A DNA stretch of 64,000 bases, from contig MKTL01000016.1 in assembly GCA_001897605.1 (NCBI GenBank), forward strand, positions 1 through 64,000, written 5' to 3'. The stretch's first letter is position 1. Every line of letters begins with the position of its first letter. Below the pieces are notes generated by a model. That model was not told the DNA's origin and did no database searches. It worked only from the letters and a program-made list of their open reading frames with translations. The position numbers were made by a program, and so were the translations under genes. Below, piece by piece: positions 6,575 to 64,000 of the stretch. The stretch is from Clostridiales bacterium 38-18. GTDB taxonomy: Bacteria; Bacillota; Clostridia; Peptostreptococcales; Acidaminobacteraceae.

Positions 6575-6650
6575 GCACTCGTAGCTCAGAGGATAGAGCA
6601 ATCGCCTCCTAAGCGATAGGTCGGATGTTCAAATCATCTCGGGTGCGCCA
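6575..6650 (+). tRNA. tRNA-Arg (anticodon CCT)
   Basis: A 76-base cloverleaf with CCA encoded. The acceptor stem GCACTCG pairs with CGGGTGC (one G-U). The D-arm GCTC..GAGC, anticodon stem ATCGC/GCGAT with loop CTCCTAA (anticodon CCT), and T-loop TTCAAAT are all present. Confidence 0.95.
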
Positions 6651-6660
6651 AAATGAATGA

Positions 6661-6696
6661 AAGCCTTGTAACTAAATAGTTGCAAGGCTTTATTTA
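6661..6696 (+). terminator. Intrinsic terminator of the tRNA-Arg transcript
   Basis: Arms AAGCCTTGTAACT (6661-6673) and AGTTGCAAGGCTT (6678-6690) pair with one G-U around an AAAT loop, then TATTTA. The group II intron begins at the base after this element. Confidence 0.85.
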
Positions 6697-8602
6697 GTGC
6701 GCCCAGCATGGGCGCAATCCAACGGGTGAAAGTCCCGAACACGCCCTAGTAGTGGGAAGTGTATAGCTTAAGCCAAGGGTGTCGTGGGTGATTGCGAATC
6801 TGAAGGAAGTCGGCGGCAAATCTCTGGTCTGACGAACAGAAATCACATCAGGCATCGGTTAAGGATAAGGCTACTAATCAAGTCAAAGTCCAATAACTAC
6901 TCGGAATTAACCGCCGTAAATGTGGCAGATAGATGGAGAGAAGGATTGCGTTCTTACCTGGGGAGATCTCACGGACGTTTAAGACACTATAGTCATTAAC
7001 GGTTGAAACAAGATTTATCGTGAGAAGTCAGCCGAGACCATAGTAGTGGTCATGTCGACGTGACCATGAAGGGTTGAACCTAAGGAGGTGAAAGTCAATG
7101 AATGTTACCGAAATCGGGACAAAAGAAAGCAGAACACATCGTAAAAGCGATGGCTACTGTCAGAGAGATAGTGCGGAACACAAAGGGTATGACAGAGCGC
7201 TTACCGAAACGAGGATAACTGAAAACAACATCACCGACGCAAGCAGTGAAGAGTATGGCCTACTTGAACAAATTCTAGACCCCGAAAACCTGAATAAAGC
7301 ATACAAACAAGTGAAGAGAAACAAAGGGTCGCACGGCGTGGATGGGATGAGTACAGATGAACTTCTGGAATATTTCAAACAAAACGGGAATACGTTAAGA
7401 AAAACCATACTAGACGGTAAATACCGTCCAAGTCCCGTCCGAAGGGTTGAAATCCCAAAAGATAATGGGAAGAAAAGACAGTTAGGCATACCGACAGCAG
7501 TAGACAGAGTCATCCAGCAAGCCATTATGCAAGTGCTATCACCTCTTTATGATGTGACATTTAGTGAGACAAGCTATGGCTTCCGCCCAAAGCGAAGTAC
7601 CCACGATGCACTGAGGAAATCCATAGAATATGCAAACGAAGGTTACACTTACGTTGTAGACATGGACCTCGAGAAGTTCTTTGACATCGTAAATCAATCG
7701 AAGATGATAGAAATACTATCAAGAACCATCAAAGATGGACGTGTCATCTCATTGATTCACAAATATCTTAGAGCGGGTGCAATCGTGAACAAGCGATTTG
7801 AGGAAACTCAAATCGGACTCGCGCAAGGTGGAAATCTAAGCCCGCTATGTAGTAACATCATGCTTAACGAGCTTGATAAAGAACTAGAGAGAAGAGGCAT
7901 ACGATTTGTTCGCTATGCAGACGACATCATGCTGTTTGCAAGGTGTAAGCGCAGTGCCGCAAGAATCATGGCACATATACTGCCATTCATCGAAAACAAG
8001 CTCAAATTACGTGTGAATAAAGAGAAGACCAAAGTAGCCTATATCGGCCATGTCAAGTTCTTGGGCTATGGATTCTATCCTAGCAAAGGCTCTAAGATAA
8101 AACTCAAAGTTCATAAGAAGAGCATCGTAAAGATGAAAGACAGAGTGTGTGAAATCACCTCTAGAAGTAGAGGTATCAGTTATGAAACCCTAAAACTCGA
8201 ACTGAAACAATATGTAAGGGGATGGGTCAATTACTTTAAACACGCGGACATGAGGATGTTACTGGAATCAACAGACGCTTGGTTGCGCCGTAGACTTCGT
8301 ATGTTCATTTGGAAGCGGTGTAAGAAAGTGAAGACGAGATACCGCCTGCTGAAACAACTTGGCTACAATCATCAAAACGCTATCAAGTATGCAAACACAA
8401 GAAAAGGCTACTGGTCAGTTGCCGGTAGCCAAATACTAAGCTGTTCTATTACAGATGATGTGCTTCGAAAAGCTGGTTATCTGTTCTTCTTGGACTATTT
8501 GAAATCTGTTAATGCGTAAACTTGGGAACCGCCGTATACCGAACGGTACGTACGGTGGTGTGAGAGGTCGGGAGGATTATTCAATTTTCCCTCCTACTCG
8601 AT
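6697..8602 (+). mobile_element. Group II intron with encoded reverse transcriptase
   Basis: About 1.9 kb retroelement. The 5' end starts GTGCGCCCAGCATGGGCGC, a known group II intron opening. Domain V is visible near 8524-8558: CCGCCGTA/TACGGTGG lower helix, TACC/GGTA upper helix with GAAC loop and a CG bulge. By position, the catalytic triad reads CGC rather than AGC. Domain VI follows (GGGAGG/CCCTCC) and the intron ends CCTACTCGAT at 8602. Insertion right after a terminator hairpin, the CGC triad and a maturase without endonuclease all fit group IIC habits, though class was not tested. GC content is clearly higher than in the flanks, suggesting transfer. Confidence 0.9.
7098..8519 (+). CDS. 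ltrA: Group II intron reverse transcriptase/maturase
   Basis: 473-residue intron-encoded protein that helps splice the intron RNA and copies it into new target sites. The reverse transcriptase fingers/palm is present (residues about 60-330), with QAIMQVLSP, TSYGFRP, QGGNLSPL and the catalytic YADDIML. The maturase (GIIM) domain follows (residues about 360-440, LKLELKQYVRGWVNYF). There is no HNH endonuclease at the C-terminus, which is normal for several bacterial classes that prime from other DNA ends. ATG 7098 has AAGGAGG ten bases ahead. The frame is intact, so the element may be active. Confidence 0.95.
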   Translation: MNVTEIGTKESRTHRKSDGYCQRDSAEHKGYDRALTETRITENNITDASSEEYGLLEQILDPENLNKAYKQVKRNKGSHGVDGMSTDELLEYFKQNGNTLRKTILDGKYRPSPVRRVEIPKDNGKKRQLGIPTAVDRVIQQAIMQVLSPLYDVTFSETSYGFRPKRSTHDALRKSIEYANEGYTYVVDMDLEKFFDIVNQSKMIEILSRTIKDGRVISLIHKYLRAGAIVNKRFEETQIGLAQGGNLSPLCSNIMLNELDKELERRGIRFVRYADDIMLFARCKRSAARIMAHILPFIENKLKLRVNKEKTKVAYIGHVKFLGYGFYPSKGSKIKLKVHKKSIVKMKDRVCEITSRSRGISYETLKLELKQYVRGWVNYFKHADMRMLLESTDAWLRRRLRMFIWKRCKKVKTRYRLLKQLGYNHQNAIKYANTRKGYWSVAGSQILSCSITDDVLRKAGYLFFLDYLKSVNA

Positions 8603-8641
8603 TTAGAACATGATGTTATTATCAATACTGAAGGAGCAAAA

Positions 8642-9100
8642 ATGAATAATATACACGAGAAATATATGTACGAAGCAATTAAAGAGGGTGAAAAGGCTCT
8701 CATTATGAATGAAGTTCCCATAGGAGCTGTTATCGTTAAGGACGGCATCATAATTGCTAAAGGGCATAATACACGCGAAATTCAAGAATCAGTAATAGGT
8801 CATGCCGAAATAAATGCGATACAAGAGGCTTGTCGTAAACTTGGTACGTGGCGATTGACAGAGTGTGATATGTATGTTACAATTGAACCCTGTCCGATGT
8901 GTGCTGGCGCAATATTTCAGTCGCGGTTGAGGGCAGTTTATTTTGGATCAAATGATGAAAAAGCTGGCTTACTTGGATCAAAATTCAATTTGTTTTCTAT
9001 TGAAGGCTTGAACCATTATGTGCAAGTTTATTCTGGTATACTGGATGATCAGTGTAAAAGTTTAATGACAAGCTTTTTTAAAAAGAAGCGTAATAAATAA
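8642..9100 (+). CDS. tadA: tRNA-specific adenosine deaminase TadA
   Basis: 152 residues. It deaminates adenosine 34 of tRNA-Arg(ACG) to inosine, widening wobble decoding; it acts as a cytosolic zinc-dependent dimer. The zinc and proton-shuttle motifs are intact: HAEINAI (about residues 58-64) and PCPMCAGAI (about 87-95). Length matches the family. Start: ATG 8642 behind GAAGGAG. In Bacillus and Clostridia tadA sits beside the SRP RNA gene and dnaX, as here. The group II intron ends 39 bases upstream and may have displaced its original promoter region. Confidence 0.95.
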   Translation: MNNIHEKYMYEAIKEGEKALIMNEVPIGAVIVKDGIIIAKGHNTREIQESVIGHAEINAIQEACRKLGTWRLTECDMYVTIEPCPMCAGAIFQSRLRAVYFGSNDEKAGLLGSKFNLFSIEGLNHYVQVYSGILDDQCKSLMTSFFKKKRNK

Positions 9101-9106
9101 GGTTAT

Positions 9107-9196
9107 GGAGAGATGTCCGAGTTGGCTAAGGGGCACGCCTGGAAAGCGTGTAAGGCTGTCATGGCCCCGCGGGTTCGAGTCCCGCTCTCTCCGCCA
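9107..9196 (+). tRNA. tRNA-Ser (anticodon GGA)
   Basis: A 90-base type II tRNA with a long variable arm and encoded CCA. Acceptor GGAGAGA pairs with TCTCTCC; the anticodon loop CTGGAAA gives GGA; T-loop TTCGAGT. It sits between tadA and the SRP RNA. Confidence 0.95.
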
Positions 9197-9212
9197 AATA
9201 TATATAAAGCTA

Positions 9213-9481
9213 TGCCGTGCTAGACGGGGAGGTAGCGGTTCCTTGTAACCTACAATCCGCTGTAGTAGGGTTGATGCTTAGCTGAGGACACCATTTGTAG
9301 AGTCTGCGCCTATTAAGTGATGTTGAGAATTGGGTCTTACGCAATAGATACTTGTGAACCTCGTCAGGTCCGGAAGGAAGCAGCGATAAACTTGACCATC
9401 TATGTGCCGTAGGGTCGCCTAGTTTGAGTTAACTAATAGGTTAACGTCTGTAGATATCTGTTCGAAGCTAAGTGCACGGCG
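9213..9481 (+). ncRNA. ffs: Signal recognition particle RNA, large Bacillus type
   Basis: About 268 bases. The ends GCCGTGC and GCACGGC pair. The universally conserved helix 8 core GTCAGGTCCGGAAGGAAGCA sits at 9363-9382, where Ffh binds. The size matches the large 6S-type SRP RNA with an Alu domain found in Bacilli and many Clostridia. With Ffh it targets nascent membrane and secreted proteins to the translocon. Confidence 0.95.
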
Positions 9482-52448: not shown

Positions 52449-52471
52449 TAATAAATCTCCTCTCTTTAATG

Positions 52472-52556
52472 AATAAAGAAAGGGTCGGTTGCACTATTCA
52501 CTCCGCATCTCTAAAGTGCCCAGTTTCAAGAGATGCTTCATCATGTCCCTCTTTAC
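52472..52556 (-). promoter_or_regulatory. Cyclic-di-GMP-II riboswitch
   Basis: Read on the minus strand, the leader holds the class II cyclic-di-GMP aptamer: GGGACATGATGAAG, then a stem GCATCTCT/AGAGATGC enclosing TTGAAACTGGGCAC, and the closing AGTGCAACCGACC. The ATGATGAA, TTGAAACTGGGCAC-like and AGTGCAACCGACC segments match the Clostridium acetobutylicum class II aptamer as I remember it. GGGCACT/AGTGC forms the pseudoknot-like pairing. It ends about 25 bases before the start codon. An alternative hairpin CTTTCTTTA/TAAAGAGAG would cover the ribosome binding site; aptamer closing of AAAGAGGG with CCCTTTCTTT would release it, suggesting an ON switch. Confidence 0.88.
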
Positions 52557-52643
52557 TTACGTGGGTAAATAGGTGAAGCCCCCACTTCCTAAATTGCCTA
52601 TTTTATTTGTACCAATAAATACAAAAAGTTAACATAATTTTCA

Positions 52644-52659
52644 TTGTCATTCATGACAA
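52644..52659. promoter_or_regulatory. Palindrome, operator candidate
   Basis: TTGTCATTCATGACAA: perfect 7-base arms with a 2-base centre, in the divergent region between the surface-protein leader and yfhO, where a repressor or activator could act on either gene. Confidence 0.4.
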
Positions 52660-52893
52660 ACCATTAGATGACTTTTAATATATTTATTAATACATTTAAA
52701 GTAGACGTAAAATCATGTATAATGAATGTATCAATTTATGAGTATTTAGAACTGATACAGGAATATTTCAACAATGTTAACTTTATATTATTTCAATTGT
52801 ATGTACTTAAAACAATAAACTAGAATTAGTAACAATCATTTGAAATAACAGGTATCATATCATCACTATATATTTAGCAACGCAGGAGGTAGC

Positions 52894-55626
52894 ATGAAGC
52901 AAAGAATATTAAAGCACAAGTATGTTTTATCCACCTTTGGAATTTCCTTTTTATTTATGATGATTGCGTTTGCTGTCATTGGACTTTATCCATTTGGAAA
53001 AGGACAAATTATGGTAATAGACAGTTGGCATCAGTATTATCCATTCTTTCAGGAGCTCCATTACAAGCTTCAGCACGGTGAATCCATTTTTTATTCCTGG
53101 GATATGGGGATGGGGTCCAACTTTATACTCGTAATGGCGTATTACGCCTTTAGCCCTATTTATTTACTTTCAATTTTAGTACCTGCGCAGTTTCTAAGAG
53201 AGTTTCTTATGTTTGCAACGGCGTTTAAAATTGCACTTGCAGGTACTTTTTTTTCTGTATATATCAAGCATCAATTTAAACGAGAAGATTACACCATTAC
53301 CGGATTTGGACTTTTATATGCATTTTGTGGGTTCACAATGGGCTATTATTGGAATGTGATGTGGCTAGATGCGGTTGCTTTGTTTCCTCTGATCATTCTA
53401 GGCATGCATCGCGTGATTAGCGGAAAGGGCTTTAAGCTCTATGTGATTACACTTGCAATTGCTTTAATCAGCAATTTCTATATTGGCTATTTTGTCTGCG
53501 AGTTCATTTTGATTTACTATTTTATTGCCTATTTTTCTAGGCGTGAAAAATTCAAATTTGGTCATTTTTTTAATCGCTCAATTCAGATTCTGGTCTACTC
53601 TTTTATAGCAATTGGACTTGCTGCTATCGTTTTGCTGCCAGCATTTAGGGGCTTACAGCTATCACATGCTATCGAAGGATCAAAGCCGACAAGCTTTAAG
53701 ACCTACTTTACCACGCTCGAAATACTAAACAACCTTTTAGTAGGTGTCCAGCCAACGGTTAAAAGTGGTCTACCTAATATCTTTAGTAGCTTTATAGCAT
53801 TGCTGATGCTACCCGTTTATTACATGACAAATAGAATTAAAATAAAAGAAAAAATACTTTATACTGGATTGCTGGTATTCTTTATCGCAAGCTTCAATAT
53901 AAACTATTTAAACTATATTTGGCATGCGTTTCATTTTCCAAATGAAGTACCTTATCGATTTGCATTTATGTTTTCGTTTGTATTACTAACGATGGCATAC
54001 AAGGGATTTGAAAACTTTGAAGAAACAAGGACAAAACAAATTTGGGCCATACTGATAGGTGTTGTCATTTATTTGATCGTCAATGAAAGTATTTCACTTA
54101 AAAGTGAGGTTCTCTTTGGTACATTGGCAGCAACCGCACTGTATGGACTTGTATTCCTACTTTATAGATATAGGGTAATTCGTAGAAAGCTATATGTGAT
54201 TCTATTTTCAATATTGATTTTATCAGAAGCACTCCTATCAGCCATTTTGGGGTCTACCACCACAGGAAGCTCATCTAGAGCAGGCTATCCGTATTTAGGT
54301 GATGATGTTAAGGCAGCAGTGCAAAAGGTCTATAATGCGGATGACAGCTTTTACCGCATGGAGATGATTAAGTGGTATTCAACAAACGATCCAGCTTTGT
54401 ATGGCTATCGTGGGGTATCTATGTTCTCTTCTACAGTAAACTCAAATGTGACGCAGTATCTAAAAACATTGGGATTAGCAGCTTCACCTGCGTCCAATCG
54501 CTATTTATATGCGGCGAGTACACCCCTCGTAAATGGTCTACTAAACGTAGACTATTTAATAGGAAGAGACGCACAGGGCACGAGAGATAACGTTGGGTAC
54601 AGTCCATACTTAACAGAGGGTAAGGTCAATGTCTTTAAGAACAATTATCCACTTTCTATCGGATTTAGAGTAGATTACAATACGTATAACTGGGAGGGAA
54701 GTCCTTCCAATCCATTTATCGCACAGGAAGCATTTTTAAAGTCCGCAACTGGAAATGAGTACCAGCTCTATACCAATGTGCCAATATCCAGTGAAAACTA
54801 TGTTAATATGGAGAGAACGAATTTAAGTAACGACCTAAGATATTCCTATAAGAACCTAGATGCTTCAGCAGTTGGAAATGCTGTTCTCTTCTTCAATGCA
54901 CCAGAAACAAAGCAGATGTACCTTACAATGTATGCGAATCGTTCCTATAAAACAAAGGTTTCAATTGGCGGCGAGAGTCCAGTTGAATATGAAACGCGAA
55001 GGGGATTAATCATTGATTTAGGCGTACTTGAGAAAGGAACCGAAATCAAACTTGAGTTTGAGGTTCAAGCGGCAAACGAGGGGTATTTCAACCTACAGGC
55101 GGTTACCTTTGACCAGTCAGCATGGGAAGCTGCTTATGGTGAGCTTTCAGATGAGCAACTGATCGTAACTGATTTTAGCTCGACTAAAATTAAGGGGCAT
55201 ATAGACGCAAAGAACGATGGCTTTATCTACACCTCAATTCCATATGAGTTGGGATGGACAGTTAAGATCGATGGTGAAAAAATACTAACTGAAGCACTTG
55301 ATGAAGCGATGCTAATGGTCGATGTCGAGAAGGGGTATCACGAGATTGAATTTAGCTATCTACCATATGGGCTAAAGCAGGGCTTTTTTATCAGCCTAAT
55401 GGCACTTGCTCTTTTCATTTTCATGCTGAAGTACGGGCAAAGCCAACCAGATCCTGATTTTGTGGAGCCTGAAGTTTTAGTGTATACAAAGGCACTTGAA
55501 GAGATGCTCAAAGAGGATTTGCATGAGTCAGATATAGCGCATGAGCAACCAATAGAGAATGTATCAGAAGAAGTGAAAACATCAAAAGAAGTGAATGTAT
55601 CAATACAAGAAAATAAGCTAGAGTAA
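52894..55626 (+). CDS. YfhO family membrane glycosyltransferase
   Basis: 910 residues. About 12 membrane helices in the first 450 residues, a large extracytoplasmic domain (about 460-840), one more helix (about 843-862) and an acidic cytoplasmic tail. Opening with GLYPFGKGQIMVIDSWHQYYPFF and the later DMGMGSNF fit YfhO. In Bacillus YfhO acts outside the membrane with CsbB and GtcA to add GlcNAc to lipoteichoic acid. Genes for a CsbB/GtrB-type transferase and a GtrA/GtcA-type flippase face it downstream, so the three probably form one decoration pathway. ATG 52894 behind GGAGG. Confidence 0.85.
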   Translation: MKQRILKHKYVLSTFGISFLFMMIAFAVIGLYPFGKGQIMVIDSWHQYYPFFQELHYKLQHGESIFYSWDMGMGSNFILVMAYYAFSPIYLLSILVPAQFLREFLMFATAFKIALAGTFFSVYIKHQFKREDYTITGFGLLYAFCGFTMGYYWNVMWLDAVALFPLIILGMHRVISGKGFKLYVITLAIALISNFYIGYFVCEFILIYYFIAYFSRREKFKFGHFFNRSIQILVYSFIAIGLAAIVLLPAFRGLQLSHAIEGSKPTSFKTYFTTLEILNNLLVGVQPTVKSGLPNIFSSFIALLMLPVYYMTNRIKIKEKILYTGLLVFFIASFNINYLNYIWHAFHFPNEVPYRFAFMFSFVLLTMAYKGFENFEETRTKQIWAILIGVVIYLIVNESISLKSEVLFGTLAATALYGLVFLLYRYRVIRRKLYVILFSILILSEALLSAILGSTTTGSSSRAGYPYLGDDVKAAVQKVYNADDSFYRMEMIKWYSTNDPALYGYRGVSMFSSTVNSNVTQYLKTLGLAASPASNRYLYAASTPLVNGLLNVDYLIGRDAQGTRDNVGYSPYLTEGKVNVFKNNYPLSIGFRVDYNTYNWEGSPSNPFIAQEAFLKSATGNEYQLYTNVPISSENYVNMERTNLSNDLRYSYKNLDASAVGNAVLFFNAPETKQMYLTMYANRSYKTKVSIGGESPVEYETRRGLIIDLGVLEKGTEIKLEFEVQAANEGYFNLQAVTFDQSAWEAAYGELSDEQLIVTDFSSTKIKGHIDAKNDGFIYTSIPYELGWTVKIDGEKILTEALDEAMLMVDVEKGYHEIEFSYLPYGLKQGFFISLMALALFIFMLKYGQSQPDPDFVEPEVLVYTKALEEMLKEDLHESDIAHEQPIENVSEEVKTSKEVNVSIQENKLE

Positions 55627-55646
55627 AAATTGTCATCACAATAATA

Positions 55647-55714
55647 AAGCCTGACGAGATAAGCTGTCTACCGTTTTAAAAACAAGTAGCGCTTTCGTAG
55701 TCAGGCTCTTTTTA
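55647..55714. terminator. Convergent terminator between yfhO and the GT2 gene
   Basis: AGCCTGA (55648-55654) and TCAGGCT (55701-55707) close a longer structured hairpin, with TTTTTATT on the plus side; the minus side continues into TTTATTATT. It separates the two convergent transcripts. Confidence 0.7.
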
Positions 55715-55718
55715 TTGC

Positions 55719-56654
55719 TCAATGTCTTTCAACTCTTTTTTCAATAAGATAATGCGGGCGCCTTTTAATTTCTTCATAGATTCTTGAAATGTATAATCCA
55801 ATAATTCCAAGCGAGAGCATAATCATCGATCCTGTGATTAAAATCAACAATATAACGGTGGAAAAGCCGCTAATAGCATTACCAAAAAAGAAATTAAACA
55901 AAGTTTGTATCCCCATAACGACAGCAAATACTAGGAATAACCCCCCAGCAAATAAAGTAAGATAGAGGGGCTTACTTGTATAGGATACAATGGCACTCAT
56001 CGCTAGAAAAATCAGTCTGCCAAATGAAAAGTGGCTCGTTCCCTCAAGGCGATCTGCCACATCAAATTCAAAGGTAACGCTTTTAAAGCCCACCCAGCTC
56101 ACGATACCTCTGAAAAAAACATTTCGCTCATTGAAGCTTCTCAGACTGTCGATGACTTGGCGATTCATTAATTTAAAGTCTGATGAATTGTCCATTTTAA
56201 GTCCAGTAATCCACTTGAGAACTTTATAGAAGGTTTTAGCAAAAAATTTATGTGAAAGAGTTTCACGCCCTCTCGAGGCTTTTATACCATCAACGATATC
56301 CGCATTGGTTTCAGACATGATTCGAAGCATGTCTTTGACATAACGAGGAGGGTGCTGAAGATCAGAATCCATCGTTAAATACAGATCCGCATCAACTGTT
56401 TCGATACCAGCCCTTAAGGCGACCTCCTTCCCAAAGTTTCTGGCAAATTTTATCCCAGAAACCTCGTTGAACTCTTTAGAAAGTGCTTCGATTACCTGCC
56501 ATGTATGATCCTTAGAGCCGTCATCTACAAAGTGATAACGACAAACAATACCATCCTGATTGAGTATGCGTTTGATTTCTAAAAAGTTGGTTCTAAGGGC
56601 ATCACCTTCATTAAAAACTGGAATAATAAGTACAAGACTTTTAAGTGAATTCAT
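55719..56654 (-). CDS. GtrB/CsbB-type glycosyltransferase family 2 (bactoprenol sugar)
   Basis: 311 residues. Family 2 catalytic domain (about 5-220): LVLIIPVFNEGDAL, the DDGSKDHTW nucleotide site, MDSDLQHPP and the NERNVFFRGIVSWVG acceptor helix. Two membrane helices follow (about 233-258 and 267-292) with charged ends. Such enzymes move a sugar from a nucleotide donor to undecaprenyl phosphate at the inner face. Start ATG 56654. The gene for a GtrA-like flippase is five bases upstream on the same strand. Confidence 0.9.
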   Translation of the reverse strand: MNSLKSLVLIIPVFNEGDALRTNFLEIKRILNQDGIVCRYHFVDDGSKDHTWQVIEALSKEFNEVSGIKFARNFGKEVALRAGIETVDADLYLTMDSDLQHPPRYVKDMLRIMSETNADIVDGIKASRGRETLSHKFFAKTFYKVLKWITGLKMDNSSDFKLMNRQVIDSLRSFNERNVFFRGIVSWVGFKSVTFEFDVADRLEGTSHFSFGRLIFLAMSAIVSYTSKPLYLTLFAGGLFLVFAVVMGIQTLFNFFFGNAISGFSTVILLILITGSMIMLSLGIIGLYISRIYEEIKRRPHYLIEKRVERH

Positions 56655-56659
56655 AACTG

Positions 56660-57067
56660 CTACTCCTTATAAATAATAAACTTGTAGATAAAAAAGTTCC
56701 AGCAAACGACACACGCCATTTTTAAGAAGGGTGAAAATAAAGCATTAATTCCTAAAACATCGGTTAAAAACCTCAGTAGAAACACATTTGCAAACACTAG
56801 ATTAAAAAGAAAAAGCAATAAGTATAGAAACAGCTGTCGATTAACCCTACCCTGAGATTGGAAGGACCATTTTCTATTTACAAAGAAAGAGAACAGGAAT
56901 ACAAGTGCGTAAACAATGACACTTGCAAGGATATAATTAAGTCCGACGGCCTTATACAACAGTACGTATAAGCTGTATTCTATTCCAAATGCAGTAAACC
57001 CAGTAATTAAATATCTAGTAATTTGATTAATTGTCTTTGAGGATAGTTTAATATCAAATAAACGCAT
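56660..57067 (-). CDS. GtrA/GtcA-like membrane protein
   Basis: 135 residues. Four hydrophobic helices (about 15-35, 38-58, 79-98, 108-130). The sequence RYLITGFTAFGIEYSLYVLLY followed by FFVNRKWSF matches GtrA. These proteins are thought to flip lipid-linked sugars across the membrane for wall polysaccharide or teichoic acid decoration. The ATG at 57067 has a plausible GGAGAG. It is co-transcribed with the family 2 transferase. Confidence 0.85.
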   Translation of the reverse strand: MRLFDIKLSSKTINQITRYLITGFTAFGIEYSLYVLLYKAVGLNYILASVIVYALVFLFSFFVNRKWSFQSQGRVNRQLFLYLLLFLFNLVFANVFLLRFLTDVLGINALFSPFLKMACVVCWNFFIYKFIIYKE

Positions 57068-57174
57068 ATGCTCTCCATTTATTAGGTTATATTAATTATA
57101 TTATAAATAAGTACATTAAGATAGACAAACTAAAAGGTAAATAGTTGCATAAATACCCTGAAGCGAACAATTTA

Positions 57175-57212
57175 ATAAAAAAGCGAACTCATTTATCATG
57201 AGCTCGCTTTAA
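57175..57212 (-). terminator. Terminator of the thioester adhesin gene
   Basis: On the minus strand, AAAGCGAGCTCAT pairs with ATGAGTTCGCTTT (one mismatch) and is followed by TTTTTATT. It lies about 40 bases past the adhesin stop codon. Confidence 0.85.
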
Positions 57213-57252
57213 TTATTTATCCATATGATTATTGCAAAATACTTAATTGTAA

Positions 57253-59994
57253 CTATTTACTTCTTTTTTTAAGGAAAACGCCAGCTGCAGTAATTAAGCT
57301 ACCTAAACCATAGAATAATTCTGGAGATGCTTGACCAGTCTGTGGAAGAGCATCAGCAAGTGGGGTTTCTTCATCGTCTACGATAAACTCTTCAGCTTCT
57401 GTTGTCATTTCCATATTGTCATAGAAGCTGTCAAAGTTGAATGGCGCAATTGCTTCACCAAGTGGTGTATCTTCGTTCGTTAGTATTTCACCATTTGAAT
57501 AAACATAGCTCACAGTTATAGAACCATCAATAAATGAACCGCTTGCATTTGAAGGTGTTTCAACTAATGAGTAGCCATCAAATGATCTTGAAGAGGTTTG
57601 ATATAAAGTGCCAACGCTACCAGTGAAAGAGAATGAACTTCCAAGAGTATTACCTTCAGTATCCACATAATTTACTAAAACGGTTCCTTGTGGACCGATT
57701 GGTTGTTCCGGTACAACTGGTGGTTGTGTAGATGGTTGTGTTTGAGTTTCAGTTTCAGGTTCAGTTGTTTCTACTTTTTCATAGATATAGATTACATCGA
57801 AACTAGTTTCACCAAAGCTTCCTGAAGCGTTTTCTGGTGTGGTTTTTAGTTGATAGCCATTAATTGATTTAGAACTTGTTGTATAAGGATCAAGTGGATA
57901 GCCTTTGATGATATCATCAGAAGCAATTGATACATTGTCTTCATCAACATGCTTAACTGTTAAAACTAATTTATCATCTGGTGTATATACATAAACAACA
58001 TCAAATGGAGAATCACCGTAAACACCATTTGAATTAGCAGGTGTAGAGCTTAAAGTGTAGTTTGGTATACTTTGTGAAGATGTTGAATAAGCTTCATCAG
58101 CATATCCACTGATGGTTGCAATCGCTACAAGGTCATGGCCTTCAGCATCTTGATGTTTTATAGTGATAGTAGTCTTTGGATCTTCACGATAAACATACGT
58201 TACGGTTGCATCATCTTCTGCATAGATGCCGTTAGCATTGTCTGGAGTAGTAATTAAAGTGTAATGAGCAATCACAGCTGGACTTGTTGTATAACTTTCG
58301 CCTGCATAGCCACTCATTGAGTCAGAAGGAGAAAGTGTATTATTATCTTCATCTACATAGTAAACGTATACGGTTGATTTATCGTTTTCAACATAAATAT
58401 ATTTAACAGTGATATCACTTGAATCATGTGTTCCAGTTGCGTTTACAGGTGTATCAATTAGTGCATAATGATTAATTGTTTTAGCTGCCGTCGTATAAGA
58501 TTGGCCAACATAATTGACTACTTCTTCAGGAGCAGCAAGAACATTATCATCTTCATCAACATAGATGGCAGTAACTTTTGATTTTGGATCTTCCTTATAA
58601 ACATAAGTTACTTCAAAGTTAGAATTTCCAAATAATCCAGTTTCTGTAGCTGGTTTTGTTAAAACGGTGTAGTGTGGAATGGTTGCTGCATTAATAGAAT
58701 AATTTTCTTCAGCATAACCACTAAAGGTTTGATCTGCTGCTAAGGTTACATTTGCTTCAGAAACATGGTGCACAGTTAAGACGGTTCTTGGGATAGCAGT
58801 ATTGGTGACATTAAGCACTTTATTTTCAGAGCAAGTAAGTGTAAATGAAGTACCATTTGCAATTGAAGAAGTATAATGAGCAGGAGTCACCTCTTGAACT
58901 GAATAATTACCAGGAACAAGGTTTGAAAATACTAACGAATGGTTTTGTGTTGTTAATGTGTTAATGACCACATTGTTTTTGAGAAGCTTAAATGAAACTT
59001 CAGTTGCTGCGTTATCTGAAAAAGATTTATTAACTGTAACAGACCCTAAAAGATTTGAACTAGTACCTGTAACTGTTTTAGTTACAGTTGCTGGTTGATT
59101 TAATCCTGTTGATACGAGGGTTTGCGTTTTATCGCGACCATCTTTTGGATTAAAGGCAAATACGTCAACATAGTTACTTTTGCCATTTAAACTTACTGTA
59201 AAAGATCCAAAATCTTGTGCTGTGGCAGAAGCTAGTGACTTTTTAAAAGTTACCTGTGTCCAACCATCGCTTACTGATGCTTCAGTTTTTGTGAAACCAG
59301 TTAAAGAAAGTGAAATCGTAGGATTCGCAAGTAAATTCTTGTAGTTAAATTGAATCACAATATTGGTACCATCTGAAGTTGCAGTTGGTTGCGTTGCTTG
59401 AATTTGGGGAAGAGCAGGTGCAGACTCTCCAGGTAGATTAGTCAAATAATTATAAACCTTATAAACATCGTTTTCATCAATACCAGGTGCATACCAATAT
59501 GTCCAGTTTACATTTCTGTTGTTTGAGTACTTCCAAATTGCAGCTTGTATCGCAGTAACGGCTTCGGTACTTGTAAGCTGACTAATTTTGTTACCGCTAG
59601 ATAACCCAGCGTTAACGCGTGCTTGCAAAGTGTCTACACTAATAACTGGAAAGCTATTATTGACGATTGCGCGGATTTTCGAAGCATTTGTAAGATAGCT
59701 AATGGATTCTAAACTACTAATTGTATAAGAGTTATGACTCCCAGAGCTAAGTCCATTTTCAAAATCTAGACAGTATGCAGTAAACTTGTTTGATGTATCA
59801 TCTTTTTGTCGAACATTCATTAGAGAAGTATCAGTAGCTGAGTACTTATTCTCCATTAAAATAGCTTTTCCATTTGTGTTGCTGTTAACATACTCATAAT
59901 AAGTAGTAGCTGCAAAGCTAGTTGCTGGAAATGTGCCGATTACCAGAACGGCAATAAGTAATAATGCAAATACTTTTTTTACAGAATTCTTCAT
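57253..59994 (-). CDS. Thioester- and MucBP-repeat LPXTG adhesin
   Basis: 913 residues. Signal peptide (about 1-28, KKVFALLLIAVLVIGTFPATSFA), then a Gram-positive thioester domain: Cys near residue 75 (FTAYCLDFENG) and Gln near 150 (TAIQAAIWKYS) would form the internal thioester that binds host or surface amines covalently. A Cna-B/SpaA-like domain (about 315-400) and six repeats of 66-70 residues of the MucBP type (about 400-840) follow, then a Thr/Pro linker, LPQTG, a helix and KKRSK. Sortase would anchor it to the wall. A TTG at 60012 is open, but ATG 59994 follows AAAGGAG. A class I cyclic-di-GMP riboswitch precedes it. No sortase gene is in the window. Confidence 0.88.
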   Translation of the reverse strand: MKNSVKKVFALLLIAVLVIGTFPATSFAATTYYEYVNSNTNGKAILMENKYSATDTSLMNVRQKDDTSNKFTAYCLDFENGLSSGSHNSYTISSLESISYLTNASKIRAIVNNSFPVISVDTLQARVNAGLSSGNKISQLTSTEAVTAIQAAIWKYSNNRNVNWTYWYAPGIDENDVYKVYNYLTNLPGESAPALPQIQATQPTATSDGTNIVIQFNYKNLLANPTISLSLTGFTKTEASVSDGWTQVTFKKSLASATAQDFGSFTVSLNGKSNYVDVFAFNPKDGRDKTQTLVSTGLNQPATVTKTVTGTSSNLLGSVTVNKSFSDNAATEVSFKLLKNNVVINTLTTQNHSLVFSNLVPGNYSVQEVTPAHYTSSIANGTSFTLTCSENKVLNVTNTAIPRTVLTVHHVSEANVTLAADQTFSGYAEENYSINAATIPHYTVLTKPATETGLFGNSNFEVTYVYKEDPKSKVTAIYVDEDDNVLAAPEEVVNYVGQSYTTAAKTINHYALIDTPVNATGTHDSSDITVKYIYVENDKSTVYVYYVDEDNNTLSPSDSMSGYAGESYTTSPAVIAHYTLITTPDNANGIYAEDDATVTYVYREDPKTTITIKHQDAEGHDLVAIATISGYADEAYSTSSQSIPNYTLSSTPANSNGVYGDSPFDVVYVYTPDDKLVLTVKHVDEDNVSIASDDIIKGYPLDPYTTSSKSINGYQLKTTPENASGSFGETSFDVIYIYEKVETTEPETETQTQPSTQPPVVPEQPIGPQGTVLVNYVDTEGNTLGSSFSFTGSVGTLYQTSSRSFDGYSLVETPSNASGSFIDGSITVSYVYSNGEILTNEDTPLGEAIAPFNFDSFYDNMEMTTEAEEFIVDDEETPLADALPQTGQASPELFYGLGSLITAAGVFLKKRSK
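57480..58800 (-). repeat. Six MucBP-type repeat units in the adhesin gene
   Basis: Repeats of about 66-70 codons share the frame (T/I)xxxVDEDxxxL...SGYAxExYTTSxxxIxxYxLxxTPxNAxGxxxxxxxxVxYVY. The repeats are diverged in sequence, so the array is old rather than newly expanded. Confidence 0.85.
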
Positions 59995-60028
59995 AAAACT
60001 CTCCTTTGCCAAATCATATTATTGTTTT

Positions 60029-60137
60029 GGCAGTCGGACGATCTTGGTTTAATTCTTTGTAACTGATTTAAGTTAATTAAACTTTAGACTCCTGACTTTG
60101 CGTCCTCCACTTTCATAGAGTTTGCCCTTGCTATGCA
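60029..60137 (-). promoter_or_regulatory. Cyclic-di-GMP-I (GEMM) riboswitch
   Basis: On the minus strand the leader holds the GEMM-I core: AAGGGCAAACTCTATGAAAG (GNRA tetraloop GAAA), GGAGGACGCAAAGTCAGGAG (the near-invariant GACGCAAAG, + strand 60096-60104) and the TCTAAAG tetraloop receptor, then a third stem and GTCCGACTGCC. The aptamer begins about seven bases after the stop of the upstream 79-residue gene. Its last bases (TGCC) can pair instead in a hairpin TTTGGCA/TGCCAAA (60007-60013 with 60026-60032) that abuts the adhesin ribosome binding site, giving a plausible switching part. Direction of the switch cannot be told. Confidence 0.9.
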
Positions 60138-60143
60138 TAAACG

Positions 60144-60383
60144 TTAAATCACGTTTATCATTCTTTCATCTTGCCATGTGCGCAGCTTATCTGATTTCTC
60201 AGTGTTTAAAGCAACTGCATTGTGTATTAGGTTGATTAATTCTAGTTCGCTTCTAAAGTGCATTTTTTTCCTTGTGTCCAACCATTCAATCACACCTTGA
60301 TAAGTAAAGTTTTCCTGATGATATACGGTGATTAAAAAGTTAGTCCCCATGTTCATTTGATTTTTCTTAGATGGTTTTTCCAT
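60144..60383 (-). CDS. Small conserved protein, unknown function
   Basis: 79 residues. Pattern ITVYHQENFTYQGVIEWLD and MHFRSELELINLIHNAV resembles a short clostridial family found near BTAD regulators; I cannot name it. No membrane segment or signal peptide. ATG 60383 has a perfect GGAGGT eight bases ahead, whereas the longer frame from 60497 has none. The riboswitch of the adhesin gene starts just past its stop, so adhesin transcripts either read through this gene or start within it. Confidence 0.65.
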   Translation of the reverse strand: MEKPSKKNQMNMGTNFLITVYHQENFTYQGVIEWLDTRKKMHFRSELELINLIHNAVALNTEKSDKLRTWQDERMINVI

Positions 60384-60600
60384 TATTACCTCCGAGTGGA
60401 GACTACGCTCAATATAGTTATTATACATAGTCAGTGTGACAGAGGACGAACATTTGCGTGACATATAAAGAACATCGCTGTTACATATCTGTGACAAGAA
60501 TTGTTATATCTAGAAGGTTATAATACAAAAATAAAAAAACCTTCGTCTGAAGGTTTTTAGTTAACATATATTGCGAACTTGAAAGGGGGCTATACAGAGC

Positions 60601-61812
60601 CTACAAATTAATACTACTTGCACTTAGCTCCTTTACTTGTGATACAGAGATGGATTGATTATTGGCAAAAGTACCTAAAATTCGATTTAAAATTTTATGC
60701 ATCATATCCGAATCCACACCAGGAAGTAAAACGACAAATTGACTCTCATTCCATCGAGTGAACGTATCACCCTTACGGAGATGCTCCATTAAATGCTGTT
60801 TTAGATGGGAAATTCGCAAATCCTCTTGGGATTGAGAATAGCCATCAATTTTACTAGCATCCAAAACGCCTATGCTGAAAGTTACACCTGACCTTTGAGA
60901 CCGACGTCTTTCAAGCTCATAGATTGATTTAAACGTATCTGTTTCGCAAAAGAATGCATTTTCAAGACTTAATTCTGATTCTAGCGCCTCATACAAACTA
61001 CTATCATTTTTTAAAGGCTGGTGAGTCTGAAGGAGCTTTTTATAGAGTGCTTTCATGGAAGGCGATGGCTTTAACCCCATCTCATGATAGTAAAAACCGG
61101 TGATGTACTCATAGTGCTCAAGAGCTTCCTTTTGCTCACCCTTGTGCATTAACGCTTCCATTAAATTGAGATGAAAGCCCTCTTCATAGATATCAATGAT
61201 GATAGCTTGTCTACACAAAGATATGATTTCCTCATATCTTCTAGCAGCCTTAAGCAGCTCAGAAGCATTCATTACCGTTTTAAGATAAAGTCTTCGATAA
61301 TGGTTTCTTATAGAAAAAACCCAGTGCTGATCGACACAATCGGGCAGATAATCGCCGGTATAGATCTGAGTAGCAGCCAAGAAATCCTTAAGTGCTAGAT
61401 CAGGGGCATTTTGCATAAGCGCCTCGCCTCTTTTGATCAGGTCCTCAAAGCTTTCAACATCAATATGAATCGGCAGCTGATCGTTCCACTTATAGTAACC
61501 ATTTGAGAAAATTAAGGTCTTTAGATAGTCGTCATCTGTAGACTCCAAAAGCGCTTGTCTCAATCGGTGCATCTGACGTCGAAGCGTGCTTCTAGGATCA
61601 CTATACGATTCAGTTACCCACAATTGGTCCATGAGAGATTCAGGTGTAAATACGCGATCTCTATGTGTTAACATGAATTTATAGAGTTCCCAGATTTTTT
61701 TTGAACCTGCAGAAGAATTTACGAGGGACTCACCATTTTTCATAACCTCAAATTTTCCCAGAGTCTGTATGATAAATGTAGGATTTTCATTAATAACTGG
61801 GGAAGTCAACAT
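60601..61812 (-). CDS. BTAD transcriptional regulator with degenerate GGDEF-like tail
   Basis: 403 residues. Order: OmpR-type winged helix (about 14-105, FIIQTLGKFEVMKNGESL ... SLMDQLW), a bacterial transcriptional activation domain made of helical repeats (about 115-275, WVFSIRNHYRRLYLKTVMN), and a C-terminal part (about 300-395) resembling a degenerate nucleotide-cyclase/GGDEF domain: GVTFSIGVLDA, then FTRWNESQFVVLLPGV where active cyclases have a GGDEF loop. ATG 61812 follows AAGGAG; a longer frame to 61992 has no such site. It precedes the small gene and the adhesin on the same strand, so it may be their regulator. Confidence 0.75.
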   Translation of the reverse strand: MLTSPVINENPTFIIQTLGKFEVMKNGESLVNSSAGSKKIWELYKFMLTHRDRVFTPESLMDQLWVTESYSDPRSTLRRQMHRLRQALLESTDDDYLKTLIFSNGYYKWNDQLPIHIDVESFEDLIKRGEALMQNAPDLALKDFLAATQIYTGDYLPDCVDQHWVFSIRNHYRRLYLKTVMNASELLKAARRYEEIISLCRQAIIIDIYEEGFHLNLMEALMHKGEQKEALEHYEYITGFYYHEMGLKPSPSMKALYKKLLQTHQPLKNDSSLYEALESELSLENAFFCETDTFKSIYELERRRSQRSGVTFSIGVLDASKIDGYSQSQEDLRISHLKQHLMEHLRKGDTFTRWNESQFVVLLPGVDSDMMHKILNRILGTFANNQSISVSQVKELSASSINL

Positions 61813-62301
61813 TAACAACTCCTTAGTAATAAGTATATTTTGGGAATAGAATATTATATCATGAAGAGAATATTGGTTACAATCAAACGTTCGAAATTTA
61901 CTATAGTATATTAGTATAGTTATTATTACCAAATATAATAGTTGATAAACTGTTATATTAGAAATAATTTTAGAGATACAAAGATTTAACACAAGCCAAA
62001 CTTTTAACTAAAAAAATAATAAATTATTACTCAAAATCGACAATTTGATACTTTACAGATTATTCACAAAGGGGTCATAACCTATACACAACTCTATTTT
62101 ATTATAAGTACAAGATAAGTGATAAACAGATCGCTTAACACAATAAACCCCCAAAATATTTACCTAAATTGCAACAAAACCCCAATAATGAATTCCGAGT
62201 GGGCATCCCCCAAATTAACCCACTCGTGAAATTCCCCCCTTCTTAACTTTTAGATTGACTTTCATTCTTACGAATTGAAGTCTTTTTTTTTACCCATTTT
62301 T
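61813..62301. other. Intergenic region with a long hairpin
   Basis: 489 bp between the BTAD gene start and the cupin-HD-GYP stop. AT-rich near the BTAD gene. A stem CGAGTGGG/CCCACTCG (62196-62203 with 62219-62226) stands out, with a C-rich loop; no T-run follows on either strand. Isolated DnaA-box-like words are present but not clustered. No gene seen. Confidence 0.5.
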
Positions 62302-63216
62302 CTAAAAGCTAGAAGTCTTGTTATCTAAAATCATCTCGACAAATGCAGAAACGACCTCGCTGTCGTATTTCGTTCCAGAAAGCTCTTTAAGCTCAAGCAA
62401 TGCTGCCTCGATGGATTTCCCTTTCTTGTAAACGCGATCGGTAATCATAGCATCATAGCTATCACAGACGGCGAGAATTTTTGCTTCAAAGCAAATCTCA
62501 TCACCCTTTAGGCCATTTGGGTAACCCGTTCCATCTATTCTTTCATGATGCTGATAAATAATTTCAAAAACCTCCGGACTGAAGTTTTCAAGAATCAGCT
62601 TCTTACCGTGCTCAACGTGTAGCTTTATAGCTTCAAACTCCATTTGATCCAGTGCACCTGGCTTATTAAGAATTTCATCAGGAATCTTTATCTTTCCAAG
62701 GTCGTGATAAAAGGCAGCCTTGTTAATTAGATTAAGTGCCTTTGATTTATAGCCGAGTCTAACTGCGAGCTGCTTAACCAAATCGAAGACCCTTTGACTG
62801 TGCTCACCCGTATAATGATCCTTATCCTGAATTTCACGTATAAGTCGATCCACTACACCATGATGGTTTTCAAGTGTTTTATAAACGTCGTAGTTGGTAG
62901 CGTGTACAACGATGGTGGTATCTTCAAGCGTTTTTAAAGTATGAACCTCTGAGGTGTTCTTAAAGACGACGATATCACCAGATTTAACGATGGAAGCATC
63001 CTCAAAGACGAAGCAAGCGCCCTTTACGATATAATACGTTTTAAAATCCCCATTTGAAGGGAGTGGCTCTACATATAAAATACGATCTGATGAAATATGA
63101 AGAACACTAATTTGCAAATCTTCATCATGAAATTTTTTCTCTATTTGAGAATTTTTGTTCTTCATCTCATAAGTAGACTCAGCTTCACCAGAGCGTATTA
63201 TTTTGTATTCAGACAT
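62302..63216 (-). CDS. Cupin-HD-GYP cyclic-di-GMP phosphodiesterase
   Basis: 304 residues, soluble. N-terminal cupin-like beta barrel (about 20-115; TYYIVKGACFVFEDASIVKSGDIVVF), then a complete HD-GYP domain (about 130-300). The catalytic motifs are all there: HSQRVFDL, AAFYHDLGKIKIP, HVEHGKK, YQHHERIDGTGYPNGL and CDSYDAMITDRVY. Expected to hydrolyse cyclic-di-GMP, with the cupin as ligand or redox sensor. ATG 63216 follows GGAGG; ATG 63228 is less well placed. It is upstream on the same strand as the BTAD regulator and the riboswitch-controlled adhesin. Confidence 0.85.
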   Translation of the reverse strand: MSEYKIIRSGEAESTYEMKNKNSQIEKKFHDEDLQISVLHISSDRILYVEPLPSNGDFKTYYIVKGACFVFEDASIVKSGDIVVFKNTSEVHTLKTLEDTTIVVHATNYDVYKTLENHHGVVDRLIREIQDKDHYTGEHSQRVFDLVKQLAVRLGYKSKALNLINKAAFYHDLGKIKIPDEILNKPGALDQMEFEAIKLHVEHGKKLILENFSPEVFEIIYQHHERIDGTGYPNGLKGDEICFEAKILAVCDSYDAMITDRVYKKGKSIEAALLELKELSGTKYDSEVVSAFVEMILDNKTSSF

Positions 63217-63658
63217 AGAGGCCTCCATTGGTGTCTATACAGTGTTACAGACTTTTCATATTTCACTCAATTATACACAAAATAATCCTAAAATAAAAGT
63301 GGATTACATAATTATTAAGGCTATATGAGACATTGCCTTATAAATAAGAAATACTAATGTTACAAAACAAAGACAACCTAATATTTTACTTAAGAAAATA
63401 AACAAAATACCCGATATTCCTATTGTGGTGTATCCTGTCATAAGGGTGTCACATGCTTGTAAAGAGCCCTTAATCCAAAAATGATAGTTCATTTGATATA
63501 ATAAAAGTAGTATTGACTATAAGGATAGATTAGTAATCGACTGTAAAAATGAAGTATTAAGCAAAAATAATTAAATAAAGTAATTAAATAAAGTAATTAA
63601 ACAACAATTAGAGCAAGAAACAATAGATGGGTAAAAAAAAATCTGTGTGAGGTGCAAT
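63217..63658. other. Intergenic region between divergent genes
   Basis: About 440 bp. A 62-codon minus frame (63304-63492) is hydrophobic but has no ribosome binding site. A short AT tandem repeat (63570-63600) sits before the last gene. No RNA element recognised. Confidence 0.5.
63570..63600. repeat. 13-base tandem repeat ATTAAATAAAGTA
   Basis: Two full copies and a partial third of ATTAAATAAAGTA in a row, in AT-rich DNA about 60 bases ahead of the final gene. Could be slippage-prone. Confidence 0.7.
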
Positions 63659-64000
63659 ATGAAAAAAACATTAATTATATTATTGACGATAATAACGATA
63701 CTTGGTTCCATTCCCCTTGATGGCATTCTATCGTTTGCACTTGTAGTTGGGACAAGCGGTGGCGCTGATGTCGAGGTAACAGATGTCAAATACGCCATCT
63801 CACATGAAGTTTTTCAAATTACCAATGGCTATATTGAAATTCTAGGTGAAAACTTAAAGGACGTTGAAGTTTTGTTTGAAAAGTACGGGCAAGGCTTTGT
63901 CAGTATGGGTACGAGAGTTATTAACTCATCAACGTTTGTAAAATTCAACCTCAACACAGATGAAACACAGGCCTTTATTGGTAGAGTAAGAATCGGGAAC
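63659..64000 (+). CDS. Secreted protein, IPT/TIG-like, cut by the window edge
   Basis: First 114 codons of a longer gene that runs off the window. The start is ATG 63659 behind GTGAGGTG. A signal peptide is clear (KKTLIILLTIITILGSIPLDGILSFA, about 2-27). The visible mature part has TNGYIEILGENLKDVEVLFEKYG, which resembles the first strands of an IPT/TIG immunoglobulin-like domain. Probably an extracellular protein; it lies beside the surface-protein region on the opposite strand. Nothing can be said of its C-terminus or anchoring. Confidence 0.6.
   Translation, partial: MKKTLIILLTIITILGSIPLDGILSFALVVGTSGGADVEVTDVKYAISHEVFQITNGYIEILGENLKDVEVLFEKYGQGFVSMGTRVINSSTFVKFNLNTDETQAFIGRVRIGN

Follow-up and report, generated by a model that had tools for sequence, protein, structure and literature searches.

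Two unrelated RNAs, the class I and class II cyclic-di-GMP (c-di-GMP) aptamers, may stand before neighbouring surface-protein genes, and the question is then whether they oppose one another or act together. It is raised by the first 64,000 nucleotides (nts) of contig MKTL01000016.1 (contig C16; assembly GCA_001897605.1) from Clostridiales bacterium 38-18, the whole of which is here called the window. On its minus strand a class II aptamer precedes a gene for a sortase-type protein with InlB repeats, and a class I (GEMM) aptamer precedes that for a thioester/MucBP adhesin. In the best-studied clostridium, Clostridioides difficile, there is essentially one direction per class, class I being OFF and class II ON, although the first transcript data contain a single class I case that departs from this (PMC6200980); this invites the reading of direction from class. 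In the window, both RNAs are probably ON-type riboswitches acting mainly on translation, with high c-di-GMP raising both adhesins together and with differing second inputs. Direction here seems to follow the gene, and the classes substitute for one another before the same kind of operon.

Both aptamers score above their Rfam gathering cut-offs (Table 1). In a cmscan search against all of Rfam 15 they fit the standard models, the best of their clans, over the full length (model positions 1-84 of 84 for RF01786 and 1-87 of 87 for RF01051), and the initial annotation had placed them correctly to 1-3 bases. It was also right that they lead sortase-type surface genes on the minus strand about 5 kb apart: both products have LPQTG tails and the genes are separated by 4.8 kb, with genes for GtrA, glycosyltransferase family 2 (GT2) and YfhO proteins in between (window 52894-57067). 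By eye, each protein has an N-terminal signal, LPQTG, a hydrophobic stretch and a basic tail. The NCBIfam LPXTG_anchor model (cut-off 15.9 bits) gives 17.3 bits for the 913-aa adhesin, over the cut-off, and 15.3 bits, under it, for the 438-aa protein, in which Pfam Flg_new_2 (divergent InlB B-repeat) matches three stretches. Among the same-genus genomes searched, class II stands before the InlB-type gene in 3/3 and class I before the thioester/MucBP-type position in 2/3.

What is proposed for both leaders is a competition for the aptamer 3′ strand. Without ligand, this strand would fold onto the downstream leader, the resulting hairpin containing the ribosome-binding site in the class II case and, in the class I case, abutting it and able to pair with three of its bases. 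Once ligand is bound, the aptamer would retain its 3′ strand and the ribosome-binding site would be free, so that high c-di-GMP would bring both adhesins up together. The aptamers, the complementarity, its conservation, the gene order and the repeat arrays upstream are read directly; from them we infer ligand and direction.

In the class II leader the 3′ strand of helix P1 pairs with the ribosome-binding site segment, and so hairpin and P1 are mutually exclusive. The 10-bp duplex has an energy of −12.0 kcal/mol, reached in 26 of 5000 dinucleotide shuffles. When the aptamer pairs are enforced as in the Rfam structure and the outcome is compared with the free leader, the unpaired fraction of the window ribosome-binding site goes from 0.25 to 0.88. 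Ten class II rows were put through this folding model; 8 are in register, and opening of the site rises in 7 of them. The same hairpin (52483-52459) is listed by the terminator scan, but AGATTTATTA comes after it and not a U tract.

The class I leader has the order aptamer, TGCCAAA, a loop of variable length, TTTGGCAAAGGAGA and start codon. In eight such leaders (seven of the same genus and one from another genus of the family) TTTGGCAAAGGAGA is invariant while the loop differs, and all 80 of the 80 cells of the hairpin are paired. The duplex (−12.2 kcal/mol) is reached in 49 of 5000 shuffles; against the leader's own shuffles the 3′-strand hairpin stands at −12.2 versus a mean of −6.1, and the extension of P1 at −2.0 versus a mean of −2.9. 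Enforcing the aptamer pairs raises the unpaired fraction of the site to 0.93 in the window and to a mean of 0.80 over the eight leaders, with a rise in 8/8. A terminator was rejected as the class I platform, there being no terminator-like site listed between aptamer and gene.

Direction was then compared across leaders. For each, an ON-type duplex (aptamer 3′ strand with the downstream leader) was set against an OFF-type one (the flank upstream of the aptamer with the bases that immediately follow it), and the polarity label compares the excesses of the two over their own single-base shuffles (100 each). A label is assigned even where neither duplex beats its shuffles (the proximal G020 leader; G006:25672), and two are near ties (proximal G024, distal G014). 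The downstream gene decided which of the retrieved leaders entered the test, and they are a minority of the 178 class I and 69 class II matches across the 41 genomes searched. As leaders share ancestry and some genomes are the same as named records, the counts that follow are not of independent events. All 12 of 12 class II surface-protein leaders are ON-like (they come from L194, L198 and four genera belonging to two families), their 3′-strand duplex being 2.3-8.7 kcal/mol better than shuffles and the P1 extension at best 0.7 better. Class I surface-protein leaders are ON-like in 9/9 cases from Fusibacter and close kin and in 8/9 from other genera, 17/18 in total; the sole OFF-like one, G006:25672, comes second in a tandem and shows neither of the two pairings. 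(LPXTG is not seen in all of the surface-protein genes: G006 and G019 have a PSGE-type motif at the end instead, the G009 gene and the open reading frame (ORF) in L198 are without any, and other genes are truncated at the edge of a contig.) The eight ON-like class I leaders from other genera have a hairpin on the aptamer 3′ strand and then a T-run, and both pilus class I leaders (2/2 ON-like) also have T-runs, which argues for antitermination, i.e. ON. Class I leaders of regulator genes are ON-like in 3/3. Two ON-like class I leaders (G004:14348 and G024:238889) also hold a strong OFF-type duplex (−9.3).

That the test is able to see the OFF type comes from class I aptamers before transglutaminase-like genes, where ON-like labels were given to 0/21 proximal and 1/12 upstream (distal) aptamers, and where in 20 of the 21 proximal leaders the OFF duplex is better than shuffles. 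(One of 22 such genes, at a contig end in G040, was left out, and 12 of the 14 genes with multiple aptamers gave an upstream aptamer.) Among the leaders classified, polarity thus seems, from these pairings, to track the downstream gene and not the aptamer class.

A further argument comes from gene order. A small ORF ends just before the window class I aptamer, and its use as a query in named records gave 12 related loci. In 8 of these an aptamer follows within about 10-100 nts, class I in six (L187, L191, L192, L193, L195, L196) and class II in two (L194, L198). The order in L194 is regulator, small ORF, class II aptamer, LPQTG gene, GtrA, GT2, YfhO, which is that of the window with class II replacing class I, and in the same assembly L193 has small ORF, class I aptamer and LPQTG gene. 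L198, from Alkaliphilus peptidifermentans, has the small ORF and then a class II aptamer. In L188-L190 (Petrocella sp. FN5 and two Firmicutes metagenome-assembled genomes) a class I aptamer, hairpin and T-run lead the upstream SARP-like regulator gene, and L197 has no aptamer at its small-ORF locus. Unrelated aptamers at one and the same place argue for the same direction of both classes. Such a swap is also a natural test of whether differing aptamer folds are interchangeable sensors.

Table 1. Features of the two leaders, their surroundings and the transglutaminase-like locus (window coordinates unless a contig is named)
Feature	Position	Strand	Basis or remark
LPQTG surface protein, divergent InlB B-repeats, 438 aa	51132..52448	-	PF18998, 102.9 bits; LPQTG tail
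Class II platform hairpin, CCTTTCTTTA/TAAAGAGAGG	52459..52483	-	10 bp; P1 3′ strand with ribosome-binding site
c-di-GMP-II aptamer	52474..52557	-	RF01786, 77.2 bits (gathering cut-off 53.5), E 1.1e-15
YfhO membrane protein	52894..55626	+	PF09586, 565.8 bits
Glycosyltransferase family 2	55719..56654	-	PF00535
GtrA-type membrane protein	56660..57067	-	PF04138
Terminator-like hairpin behind thioester/MucBP gene	57180..57210	-	terminator scan
LPQTG adhesin, thioester domain (TED) + SpaA + 6 MucBP repeats, 913 aa	57253..59994	-	Pfam
Class I platform hairpin, TGCCAAA/TTTGGCA plus TCC/GGA of ribosome-binding site	60002..60038	-	uses aptamer 3′ strand
c-di-GMP-I (GEMM) aptamer	60026..60136	-	RF01051, 69.1 bits (gathering cut-off 35), E 1.8e-11
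Conserved small ORF, 79 aa, ending just before class I aptamer	60144..60383	-	comparison with relatives
-10 hexamer TATAAT	60420..60425	-	9 nt past last TGTCACA
Six TGT direct repeats in exact 11-bp steps (4 are TGT[AC]AC)	60431..60496	-	0/1000 shuffles
Terminator-like hairpin between regulator gene and small ORF	60535..60558	-	terminator scan
SARP-like regulator, Trans_reg_C + BTAD + degenerate GGDEF; start uncertain	60601..61992	-	Pfam
HD-GYP-type protein	62302..63228	-	PF13487 (HD_5), 134.2 bits; motifs HDLGK, GTGYPNG
Sortase, two class I aptamers with OFF-type pairing, secreted transglutaminase-like gene	C2:226537-228356 (L013:6537-8356)		order as listed

The second input that would distinguish the class I adhesin is a promoter with an 11-bp operator, after which come the small ORF, the aptamer and the adhesin gene; the two class II leaders of this genome have no 11-bp repeat array upstream. 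In promoters of SARP (AfsR-type) activators the published rule spaces direct repeats by 11 or 22 bp and puts the 3′ repeat about 8 bp from the -10 (PMC10936776), and the window array is probably, by its likeness to these, a SARP-type operator. It differs from them in having TGT[AC]AC in Clostridia, up to six TGT copies, a position before surface-protein operons and a regulator with a degenerate GGDEF end. Of 13 upstream regions compared, eight have 4-6 copies (0/1000 shuffles) and one has 3 (2/1000), and in L011, L117 and L194 the spacing is 8 nts to a TATAYA-like -10. A three-repeat pattern with at most one mismatch has 3 hits in the whole genome, 2 of them exact and both at the two small ORFs (reversed control, 2 hits). 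The third hit, imperfect repeats with one mismatch, is on the plus strand at window 63436-63460, ahead of a gene that starts near 63659 and encodes a surface-type protein of 2255 aa; it may be due to chance, the control pattern having as many such hits per strand. The operator most likely belongs to the neighbouring SARP-like regulator, a match predicted from their arrangement. That regulator and an HD-GYP enzyme, probably a c-di-GMP phosphodiesterase from its motifs, had been reported next door in the initial annotation and are present there (the GGDEF match of the regulator is weak).

Several points weigh against ON-type action of both leaders. The class I switches of C. difficile are OFF (PMC6200980). 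Without ligand, the GGAG of the class I site is already unpaired at 0.49 in the window (also the mean over the eight leaders), i.e. it is only half blocked, and the opening is modest, being as little as +0.03 in the weakest of the eight. The enforced class I pairs excluded P1, which makes the class I folding model soft, and the class I hairpin is so nearly invariant that covariation lends no support, the alignment of the eight leaders having no compensatory pairs. Nor does the class II platform hairpin have a compensatory pair in alignment A1 (where an indel offsets every row except the first, and 92.6% of cells pair after a slide of −1), and the covariation test for class II P1 is not above its shuffles. 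In the folding model the G020 class II row drops from 0.25 to 0.20, and the two rows with 85-nt aptamers are out of register, keeping only 10 and 12 of 22 pairs. As to the second input, five of the 13 upstream regions have just 2-3 repeats, the four with 2 being non-significant (31-89/1000), and in G002 the syntenic adhesin (L114, 4652) keeps the repeats only, with neither small ORF nor class I aptamer, which sit elsewhere (L112). For class I, the polarity call owes more to the comparison of leaders than to the leader's energetics, and class I is the weaker half of the case.

The alternative that fares best, though rather unlikely, gives the SARP-like regulator the main part in sensing c-di-GMP at the class I operon and leaves only fine tuning to the riboswitch. 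In the alignment of four orthologues the RKGD of its GGDEF domain is invariant and the GGDEF signature is replaced by N[DE]xxF (4/4), so that RKGD can be read as a c-di-GMP site of the RxxD type. The repeat arrays before the operon, the G002 adhesin with array and without aptamer, and the regulator gene, not an adhesin gene, being led by the class I aptamer in L188-L190 all speak for it. RxxD is common in GGDEF domains and alone would be weak proof; the regulator in L194 has no GGDEF match at E 0.001, and at 8 of 12 loci an aptamer does follow the small ORF.

An opposed pair, class II ON and class I OFF, in which c-di-GMP selects the adhesin displayed, is improbable. This was the initial proposal, carried over from the class rule of C. 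difficile (PMC6200980; PMC11477304), and the partial nature of the class I free-state block accords with it. However, the window class I leader lacks OFF-type pairing, its P1 extension falling short of the shuffled mean, in a test that does detect OFF before transglutaminase-like genes. The two classes occupy the same place in one gene order, as the swap in L194 exemplifies, and class I ON ahead of a cell-wall adhesin is in print for Bacillus thuringiensis (PMC4933901). With both window platforms of ON type and the class I surface leaders of relatives nearly all so, neither the opposite action of the classes nor a choice between adhesins is borne out, and the C. difficile rule does not seem to extend to this locus. 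That one aptamer has lost binding or responds to a different dinucleotide, with a single adhesin following c-di-GMP, is quite improbable: GEMM variants exist, and c-di-GMP-I-GGC fits are found among the transglutaminase-gene aptamers, but both window aptamers fit the standard models full length and are kept at their adhesin positions in 3/3 (class II) and 2/3 (class I) same-genus genomes.

The preferred reading, ON-type action of both classes, has a predicted counterpart of the opposite sign elsewhere in the genome. On contig C2 a sortase gene is followed by two class I aptamers in tandem and a secreted transglutaminase-like gene (aptamers and gene at C2:227339-228353); the sortase directly upstream is confirmed by PF04203 (111 bits), and the Pfam match of the transglutaminase-like protein is Transglut_core. 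By eye, the first aptamer of this tandem is transcriptional-looking, with a T-rich end, and the second translational. At E below 1e-45, 35 such genes were found in the 41 genomes, and 22 of them are immediately preceded, in the same orientation, by between one and three class I aptamers (at least two in 14 cases). A same-strand upstream sortase (TLxTC, found by motif and not by profile) accompanies 13 of the 22 aptamer-led genes versus 0 of the 13 without aptamer; there are 12 sortases for the 13 genes, as two G018 genes share one, and in G036 an inserted element separates sortase and gene, which are 2.6 kb apart. Five genomes (G006, G009, G019, G024, G036) have aptamer-led surface-protein genes in the same cluster. 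Several of the aptamers best fit, by E-value, the Rfam variant c-di-GMP-I-GGC. For the OFF-type pairing, cognate pairs beat shuffled flanks (0/300) and do not beat swapped partners (permutation p 0.07). From these pairings the transglutaminase-like gene is predicted to be c-di-GMP-OFF; that its product acts on adhesins is a guess.

A genome-wide programme may be envisaged, tentatively, in which c-di-GMP turns sortase-anchored adhesins ON via either class and, via mostly tandem class I, turns OFF a secreted transglutaminase-fold protein that removes adhesins, with the SARP-like regulator and its relic c-di-GMP-binding domain, and the small protein, added at the class I operon. On this tentative scheme the protein encoded behind the sortase would remove adhesins as c-di-GMP falls, and would be an independent counterpart of PPEP-1 of C. 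difficile and of LapG, the adhesin-removal analogue of Pseudomonas. Outside C. difficile, the sortase-linked predicted OFF gene offers a candidate for an enzyme that releases adhesins.

The two window leaders are part of a larger set. The host genome (3.42 Mb in 30 contigs, the window being the start of C16) belongs to the genus of Fusibacter bizertensis, and with the Rfam covariance models it has 6 class I and 3 class II aptamer matches. Four LPQTG genes on C16 have c-di-GMP leaders, at about 52 kb (class II), 60 kb (class I), 110 kb (class I) and 136 kb (two class II head to tail). The other aptamer-led targets are a type IV pilus assembly operon (class I) and the transglutaminase-like gene with its class I tandem. 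An LPXTG pattern search of the genome gave 12 hits versus 10 for the reversed control pattern; within its hits are 5 LPQTG proteins, 4 of these with c-di-GMP leaders, and one hit on contig C4 is an LPQTG directly before the stop codon (the remaining 6 hits were left out of the tally). The fifth LPQTG protein (1414 aa, about C16:229.5-233.8 kb) has no c-di-GMP leader in its 9-kb locus. The 54 GGDEF matches in the whole genome mean that c-di-GMP is a general signal in this bacterium, and the description of the switch as local is weak in consequence.

Much of this has parallels in print, namely both aptamer classes, their adhesin targets, and tandem arrangements of class II and, before COG1305 genes, of class I. 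In C. difficile the sortase substrates CD2831 and CD3246, one a thioester-domain protein, are raised by c-di-GMP via class II leaders (PMC4591827; PMC11477304), and CD2831 adjoins the PPEP-1/ZmpI gene CD2830, so that genes of both aptamer classes are neighbours, as here. There, however, class I is OFF and on a protease gene, whereas here it is ON-looking and on a second adhesin gene, the predicted OFF gene being the transglutaminase-like one on another contig; the latter together with the adhesins resembles the pair of CD2831 (ON) and PPEP-1/ZmpI (OFF) (PMC4591827). Switching in C. difficile is by transcription or splicing and here apparently by translation. The B. thuringiensis Bc2 RNA, a class I ON switch before the cell-wall-anchored adhesin gene cap, is similar (PMC4933901) but acts by antitermination; no terminator-like site was found in the window class I leader, whose control seems to be at translation, and a class II partner or an operator array goes unmentioned in the abstract of that report. 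Tandem c-di-GMP-II aptamers, 59 doublets and 9 triplets, have been listed, and most of them precede a surface anchor gene in Paraclostridium or bacteria related to it (PMC9481103); the LPQTG gene at 136 kb resembles them, though in another host and with the window class II aptamer single. An enrichment of tandem c-di-GMP-I before COG1305 transglutaminase-like genes in Bacillota is on record (PMC12452182), the same gene type and arrangement as on C2; the passages concerned mention no sortase neighbour, adhesins or OFF direction. Searches of the open-licence literature turned up no report in which both classes are ON at neighbouring adhesins, one class replaces the other at a given locus, or a sortase and a transglutaminase form an OFF module.

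The class II doublet at C16:135696-135863 (L012:10696-10863) has its two aptamers head to tail with one base in common, and similar doublets occur in three other searched genomes (G002, G020, G036). The LPQTG gene behind it has a TTEATTEA stalk and was read across an assembly gap. Immediately upstream of this leader is a gene for a protein with TPR, GAF and GGDEF domains (L012:8323-10308), and similar genes likewise precede a class II surface-protein leader in two relatives (L115:1104-3080, L118:2965-4944). Another class I aptamer, at C1:374871-375006 on the minus strand (L015:8871-9006; 48.5 bits), has no gene directly behind it and an opposite-strand gene is present; by eye, a second aptamer and a T-rich end come after it.

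The small ORF (~80 aa) has invariant QG..W and FRS..E residues and sits between the operator and the aptamer whether the locus is of class I or class II. Its product has no Pfam match at E 0.01 and no NCBIfam match above cut-off. It is modelled as strand-strand-strand-helix with a modest mean predicted local distance difference test score (pLDDT) of 69.6 (core 77-87), and the fold has no PDB match at E 0.001, the best being 0.66. The GtrA, GT2 and YfhO genes, which are perhaps a glycosylation set for the surface, are also found in relatives (L107, L114, L119, L194). At window 6575-9479 the Rfam scan revealed a group II intron flanked by two tRNA genes and then a large signal recognition particle (SRP) RNA.

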